Assembly: GCF_900182795.1 (NCBI RefSeq)
Contig: NZ_FXTX01000006.1
Span: forward strand, 1-64,000
DNA: 64,000 nucleotides
Reading direction: 5' to 3'
Origin: Venenivibrio stagnispumantis
Lineage (GTDB): Bacteria > Aquificota > Aquificia > Aquificales > Hydrogenothermaceae
The position numbers were made by a program, and so were the translations under genes. The notes below the pieces were generated by a model. The model saw only the letters and a program-made list of their open reading frames with translations. It ran no database searches and was not told the origin of the DNA. This document shows positions 2,625 through 2,925 of this stretch, piece after piece. Position 1 is the stretch's first letter, and each line of letters begins with the position of its first letter.

Positions 2625-2653
2625 TTGATTTTTTTATTAAAACTGCTTATATT
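2625..2653 (+). promoter_or_regulatory. Promoter of the structured RNA before thiC
   Basis: TTGATT at 2625-2630, a 17-base spacer and TATATT at 2648-2653, giving a start near 2660. The rest of 2446-2624 is AT-rich and should hold the grpE promoter on the other strand. I see no gene in it. Confidence 0.5.
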
Positions 2654-2659
2654 TGATAA

Positions 2660-2925
2660 AACAGGAAAAATATGAGGAATAGGTATAGCATTATGAAAGA
2701 AAGGCTGGCAAGTCAAAATCCGGAGAGTAAAGCTCAAAGGATATCCCTGCCAGAAATCCGTCCCGCCAGGGGCTTGCCAGTTAATCGGCTTAGCAGAAAT
2801 ATTACCGATAAGGTCTAAACACTAAACGGGTAAGTTTAGACGATTATGGAAACGGAAAGATGGGACGGAAGCGGGCTAATTGCGAATAAAAATTAAGCCA
2901 CCTTCTCTACAAGGTGGCTTTTTTA
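2660..2925 (+). ncRNA. Structured RNA with pseudoknot, upstream of thiC; unassigned
   Basis: Between its promoter and a perfect terminator this stretch is much less AT-rich than its surroundings and has no long ORF. Stems seen: CTGGCAAG 2705-2712 with CTTGCCAG 2773-2780; CCCTG 2745-2749 with CAGGG 2767-2771; ATCGG 2784-2788 with CCGAT 2805-2809; GTCTAAAC 2813-2820 with GTTTAGAC 2834-2841. In addition TCCGTCCC 2757-2764, inside the first stem, pairs over 8 bp with GGGACGGA 2862-2869 outside it, which makes a pseudoknot. GGCTAATT 2874-2881 could pair with 2891-2899 and so compete with the terminator stem, as in an attenuator. It has none of the TPP riboswitch sequence (no CTGAGA box), and I could not match it to RNase P RNA, tmRNA or SRP RNA. 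It is either a stand-alone small RNA or a cis-acting leader of thiC. Confidence 0.6.
2895..2924 (+). terminator. Intrinsic terminator between the structured RNA and thiC
   Basis: AAGCCACCTT (2895-2904) pairs perfectly over 10 bp with AAGGTGGCTT (2911-2920) across a 6-base loop, followed by more T residues. Its left arm can alternatively pair with 2874-2881. Confidence 0.9.

Follow-up and report, generated by a model that had tools for sequence, protein, structure and literature searches.

In the stretch of Venenivibrio stagnispumantis DNA analysed here (64,000 nucleotides, hereafter the window), a structured RNA lies between grpE (2445-1831, minus strand) and thiC, at a place where relatives carry a TPP riboswitch. 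What is this RNA, and what became of the riboswitch? A first reading, made from the sequence only, took it for a pseudoknotted RNA gene with its own promoter and terminator, possibly acting as a riboswitch or attenuator of thiC. We propose instead that positions 2611-2868 are very probably a solo IS607-like TnpB guide-RNA element inserted in the thiC TPP riboswitch, since the landing of a TnpB-type element in a riboswitch would account both for the structured RNA and for the missing TPP riboswitch. At the sequence level, comparison establishes the ends of the element, its kinship with tnpB-bearing copies, the pseudoknotted RNA, a right flank derived from a riboswitch and a genome devoid of TPP riboswitches. 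The features of the locus are collected in table 1.

Table 1. Features of the thiC upstream region and of thiC, in window coordinates.
Feature	Position	Strand	Evidence
Probable remains of the 5' end of the vanished TPP aptamer (CTGCAGGTGGC..., perhaps CTGAAA), flanking the element on its left	2586-2610	+	weak, short
Probable solo IS607-like/TnpB-derived element, left and right end, without tnpB	2611-2868	+	ends shared with other copies
Left-end promoter TTGATT-N17-TATATT, would drive the guide RNA	2625-2653	+	consensus scan; counterparts in other copies
Putative ωRNA/reRNA scaffold	2704-2868	+	covariance models R1/R2, window match 96.9-105.5 bits (the window RNA is itself among the sequences used to build them); covariation
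P1, closing stem, CTGGCAAG / CTTGCCAG	2705-2712 / 2773-2780	+	double-sided changes in 7 of 8 pairs
P2, inside P1	2718-2721/2739-2742 and 2725-2727/2733-2735	+	P2b: double-sided changes in 3 of 3 pairs
P3, inside P1	2744-2749/2767-2772	+	double-sided changes in 2 of 6 pairs
Pseudoknot 5' strand CCGTCCC, in P3 loop	2758-2764	+	partner 2862-2868
Pseudoknot 3' strand GGGACGG, closing the element on the right and adjoining the guide	2862-2868	+	all copies stop here, flanks diverge
Presumed guide AAGCGGGCTAATTGCGAATA, 3' strand of lost TPP riboswitch P1 plus linker	2869-2888	+	relatives
Antiterminator-like hairpin GGCUAAUU ... AAUUAAGCC, remnant of TPP expression platform	2874-2899	+	fold; relatives
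Intrinsic terminator, ancestral TPP expression platform	2895-2924	+	fold; aligned to relatives' AAGCCAYCTTT...AAGGTGGCTTTTTT
Possible new thiC promoter TCTACA-17-TATAAT	2906-2934	+	best site of the scan, 10/12
thiC (ThiC_Rad_SAM)	2956-4317	+	PF01964, E = 2.8e-201

Folding against shuffled sequences gives -27.9 kcal/mol and z = -3.4 for the core (2705-2781), and z = -2.2 for the entire stretch 2671-2925. The GC content of 2704-2868 reaches 47.3%, against 29.4% across the window, and is unmatched by any other sampled 165-nt stretch. The perfect stems and raised GC content on which the sequence-only reading relied are therefore genuine, and P1, P2b and P3 are backed by covariation in 13 relatives belonging to two families within Aquificota. 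Indeed, 95.6% of the cells of this alignment are paired (81.5% when shuffled), 14 pairs have changed on both sides (shuffled mean 9.1) and the covariation score is 0.430 versus 0.160 in shuffles; when the structures are slid along the alignment, the paired share drops to 27-47%. The same comparison supports P1, P2, P3 as a whole and a pseudoknot of 7 bp, for which 97.8% of cells are paired and one pair is doubly changed, from C-G to U-A. The pseudoknot was originally counted as 8 bp, but its eighth pair (U2757-A2869) relies on the first base outside the element. A search of Rfam at gathering and at relaxed thresholds, one of the checks first proposed, identified neither a known family nor a housekeeping RNA (RNase P RNA, 6S and others) for the window RNA. 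Weak matches to Thr_leader, Phe_leader, Yfr10 and Teg23 were discarded, their score coming mostly from the terminator, as was a tRNA or tmRNA identity, for which the sole match was a distant tRNA-Phe.

The relatives of this RNA reveal its nature. A search of the same genome with the region retrieved five further copies of the core (83-92% identity), each linked to tnpB at the 3' end of the open reading frame, and more copies occur in related genomes. The genes of linked copies encode TnpB (PF07282, E = 5.6e-19; TIGR01766, E = 1.2e-12), with sequence kinship to solved TnpB and Cas12f structures. At the linked loci (L002-L004, L006, L009/L093, L010, L094, L097, L098, L201 and L206), the RNA occupies the right end of a TnpB transposon, overlapping or following tnpB, whose frame crosses the RNA and stops a few tens of bases short of the element end. 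In the window copy, tnpB is missing and that frame contains stops; all that can be recognized of it is a match of 34 residues with three stops. The right end GATGGGACGG is common to every copy; GATGGRACGG closes them all, and the sequence then differs. This right-end position, the shared end and the diverging flanks correspond to the arrangement of a TnpB guide RNA (ωRNA/reRNA), and a conserved fold with a pseudoknot adjacent to the guide, as expected of such RNAs, is found here as well. TnpB would be the protein by which the window RNA is bound and used.

With the covariance models, the RNA was detected in 17 of 136 Aquificota genomes and in 10 of 30 genera, either linked or solo, some solo copies at contig ends being unclassifiable as such; the distribution is patchy, as a mobile element would be. 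The association of a promoter and a guide RNA without tnpB recurs in another genus (G022, several copies) and in another family (G052). In five G022 loci (L073, L074, L075, L107 and L108), the P3 loop holds a palindromic insert, AAAATGTGTTTTAAA...TTTAAAACACATTTT, so that one miniature element is nested within another.

This distribution bears directly on the possibility that the RNA represents a new class of riboswitch or attenuator, which would sense a thiamine-pathway compound and control thiC through the terminator. A structured RNA, a terminator and an alternative pairing immediately before thiC are what such a class would display. However, the RNA recurs at numerous unrelated sites as well as behind tnpB, it possesses transposon ends, and of all loci examined the window copy alone precedes thiC, while the thiC leaders of relatives contain TPP riboswitches. 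A new class dedicated to thiC is thereby largely refuted, and we give this explanation hardly any credence. Conservation thus separates the RNA from thiC, an outcome that the sequence-only reading had itself named as a refutation, and a dedicated leader falls with the link; the RNA gene, the terminator at its end, the pairing opposed to it and the statement that this is not a TPP riboswitch are retained.

The insertion sites are consistent with a TnpB element of IS607 type. The window element is 258 bp long and starts 14 nt ahead of TTGATT; its left end aligns with 14 other copies, and in most of these a TTGA-type hexamer likewise follows 14 nt after the start. Of the 14 copies, 12 are preceded by GGG or GGGG and one more by AGG before a G, so that flanking DNA in the position of a guide and a left-end motif in the position of a TAM are found together, as in TnpB ωRNA/reRNA systems. 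In the own genome (G000), a tnpB copy splits the nicotinamidase gene pncA (L002 and L028; G000:C35, C7), and the pncA flanks from two contig ends rejoin into an open frame of 205 aa with no duplication. In the same genome, an ends-only copy of approximately 95 bp that has no RNA core (L007/L079, G000:C2:10116-10161 and upstream; L210) sits precisely between AAAGGG and TTGCCC in the rpsB leader, where the empty site of relatives reads RAGGGTTGCCC. Insertion at G-rich or GG sites without target duplication is thus observed at both the pncA and the rpsB sites.

The rpsB (S2) leader is itself strongly conserved across the family (L211-L239: GCACRCTTYCC...AAGGGTTGCCC...GGAAGCGGAAGAAAAAACCCTTAGGAGG) and has the appearance of a structured leader with an autoregulatory role; the one locus tried against Rfam (L211) gave no match. 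A solo guide-RNA element from another family (L101, G052:C18:106915-106993) also lies upstream of rpsB, apparently at a different spot.

The GGG/GG sites, the lack of a Y1 transposase gene in the own genome and, more weakly, a relic of 27 aa that resembles a MerR-HTH and precedes tnpB in G025 (E 8e-5, short of the curated cut-off) make an IS607-like identity the most likely on sequence grounds. The transposase itself, which in the IS607 family is a serine TnpA with a MerR-HTH and a resolvase domain, was not found: no cognate enzyme was identified, and a 508-aa serine recombinase of the own genome was judged unrelated on size. The assembly of this genome has no complete tnpB either, as copies break at contig ends. 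A scan of genome contigs with the TnpB protein gave no confirmed match. The incomplete tnpB copies and the missing transposase both count against our explanation.

The second half of the question concerns the riboswitch. In a set of 37 genomes made up of the own genome and others from its family and order, 15 contain exactly one TPP riboswitch, and ten thiC loci that were read have one directly upstream; in the window and in the whole own genome the Rfam model (RF00059) recognizes no TPP aptamer, in line with the absence initially noticed. Another check proposed at the outset was a comparison with the region upstream of thiC in relatives. Their riboswitch ends with GTAGGG followed by AAGCGGGC, and then by a terminator as in the window; more generally, their 3' ends are of the GTAGGGAAGC type, four of them reading GTAGGGAAGCGGGC, and several continue with AAGCCAYCTTT...AAGGTGGCTTTTTT. 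In the window, the last base of the element directly abuts AAGCGGGC, followed by a linker and AAGCCACCTTCTCTACAAGGTGGCTTTTTT. The first 8-9 nt of 2869-2888 are identical to the sequence that follows GTAGGG in four relatives, and none of 1000 shuffles aligned to the relatives as well as this right flank. Because the right flank continues as a riboswitch 3' end, the element appears to have inserted into the aptamer immediately after GTAGGG, which offers a perfect GGG site within a conserved motif of the aptamer.

The left flank is less straightforward. In the window copy it is not GGG, the motif being visible only in the relatives (GTAGGG). Positions 2520-2605 can be aligned locally to the 5' leader and aptamer of relatives, a match equalled by 2 of 1000 shuffles and weak because it is short. 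As this flank lacks GTAGGG and aligns to the leader and first aptamer bases, most of the aptamer would have been deleted or have decayed after the insertion. Such a loss has to be assumed given the non-GGG flank and the short, doubtful 5' relic, and this also weighs against our explanation. In two genera (L039, L040-L043), the thiC TPP riboswitch seems to target the ribosome-binding site (AACCTCC...GGAGGTT) rather than a terminator, which suggests that the expression platform has been exchanged within the family.

We thus envisage a non-autonomous element, with a promoter in its left end and a guide RNA encoded by its right end, that would have inserted after GTAGGG and kept the downstream part of the riboswitch. 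The 10-bp terminator (2895-2920, -15 kcal/mol, z = -5.5) is as the sequence-only reading described it, and the alternative pairing opposed to it (2874-2881 with 2892-2899) is real but weak (-5.7 kcal/mol, z -0.6); an equivalent hairpin is legible in the L049, L053 and L057 sequences. Judged by these alignments, both are the leftover TPP expression platform and not part of the RNA. The promoter, initially considered good, is weak if judged only by its consensus (9/12; the scan gave 7 sites of this quality versus 2.7 expected), but it corresponds to the TTGATT-17-TATAAT that holds the equivalent position in tnpB copies (L027-L032), and the solo copies L069 and L101 have a promoter of like type at a like position. 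The locus does have the appearance of an RNA gene that is equipped with a promoter of its own and ends at a terminator. Transcription from the left-end promoter (2625) would yield an RNA of approximately 265 nt, with the orphaned terminator of the old riboswitch probably now ending the guide RNA.

For thiC, TPP control would have been lost. Since the antiterminator is far weaker than the terminator, the gene is probably expressed by read-through or from a new promoter. TCTACA-17-TATAAT could be such a promoter; it overlaps the terminator, in a region where chance sites are common. Alternatively, the guide RNA might have functionally replaced the aptamer. Transcripts from an upstream thiC promoter would then carry the guide RNA where the aptamer stood, and TnpB bound to it would hide the guide/antiterminator strand (2869-2888) and favour termination before thiC, so that TnpB binding or guide engagement would choose between antiterminator and terminator. 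The presumed guide does share positions with the 5' side of the surviving antiterminator, and the terminator is intact. Nevertheless, the antiterminator is weak in comparison with the terminator, no sign of selection for linkage is seen, and the arrangement is restricted to one genome. We consider both this scenario and the replacement that it implies very improbable; if true, thiC would be under a riboswitch gated by a protein and a guide RNA.

In the inserted-element explanation, the first 16-20 nt or so past the right end would form the guide and match the GGG-flanked empty site, i.e. an intact TPP riboswitch, the predicted GGG-dependent cleavage target of the window RNA being AAGCGGGCTAATTGCG. 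TnpB from other copies would bind the window RNA in trans and cut the DNA of intact riboswitches, and cutting of the empty site would favour retention or spread of the element, following the biology described for TnpB (PMC8612924, PMC11870625). A search for other targets of the guide (2869-2888) in its own genome gave no full match, and matches with two mismatches extended to 14 nt only, not above control. This guide-RNA function, like the present control of thiC, is what we infer from the architecture of the locus. The solo element could also be silent or unused by TnpB and simply interrupt the leader, with the same origin. The window holds the only solo copy with a full RNA in its genome, its middle region is unlike that of other copies, erosion has affected the left flank, and the ends-only copy indicates that elements without an RNA core do exist. 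On the other hand, all pairs of the pseudoknot and stems are intact, the promoter hexamers have been kept and a comparable solo architecture occurs in other genera. A dead relic is accordingly a substantial possibility, albeit one that we hold to be somewhat unlikely.

The RNA represents a family outside Rfam, made of TnpB-type guide RNAs carried by miniature, protein-less elements with their own promoter. In the window copy, such an element stands in the place of the aptamer while the expression platform survives, which makes it possible to test how a mobile guide RNA breaks, and possibly rewires, a vitamin riboswitch. The GGG motifs of conserved leader RNAs (TPP aptamer, rpsB leader) may be landing sites for these elements, and a resident TnpB could serve solo guide RNAs in trans.

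Among known systems, the closest are the reRNAs of IS607 elements. Stand-alone ωRNAs of IscB and the IS605-type MITEs/PATEs also combine a guide RNA or element ends with the absence of a protein gene; they involve another protein family and other ends, whereas the present element lies within a riboswitch. The IS200/IS605 element ISDra2 reportedly has TTGAT as flank motif; here the flank is GGG, and genes for a Y1 transposase are absent from the own genome. In TnpB ωRNA/reRNA systems, the guide is the DNA adjoining the element (PMC8612924), and in the IS607 element ISXfa1 the TAM is GGG, recombination occurs at GG and a reRNA pseudoknot next to the guide is essential (PMC10711439). The window RNA resembles the reRNAs of ISXfa1 and the RAGATH-18-derived reRNAs of ISFba1 by its right-end stem-loops and its pseudoknot from a loop to the guide side, and the IS607 TnpB systems by a G-rich TAM (GGG for ISXfa1, AGGAG/GAGGG for others) and GG at the ends. 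It differs in that its family matches nothing in Rfam at the gathering threshold and in that, while the RNA of linked copies lies inside the tnpB frame, the window copy has its own promoter and no tnpB. Compared with the TPP riboswitch (RF00059), the 3' strand of P1, the antiterminator-like hairpin and the terminator survive, but the aptamer is gone and the Rfam model no longer matches. TnpB-type guide RNAs can turn regulator, as a report on TldRs, nuclease-dead TnpB repressors with guide RNAs, indicates (PMC13418256); the TnpB copies considered here appear, by eye, to retain active-nuclease motifs, and no regulatory target was seen. No report of this RNA family, of solo TnpB guide RNAs or of transposons in TPP riboswitches was found in the literature searched, which was chiefly open-access. 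TnpB guide RNAs being already known, what seems new, as far as sequences can tell, is a promoter-bearing, guide-RNA-only family of IS607 type in Aquificota, one copy of which appears to have replaced the aptamer of a riboswitch.
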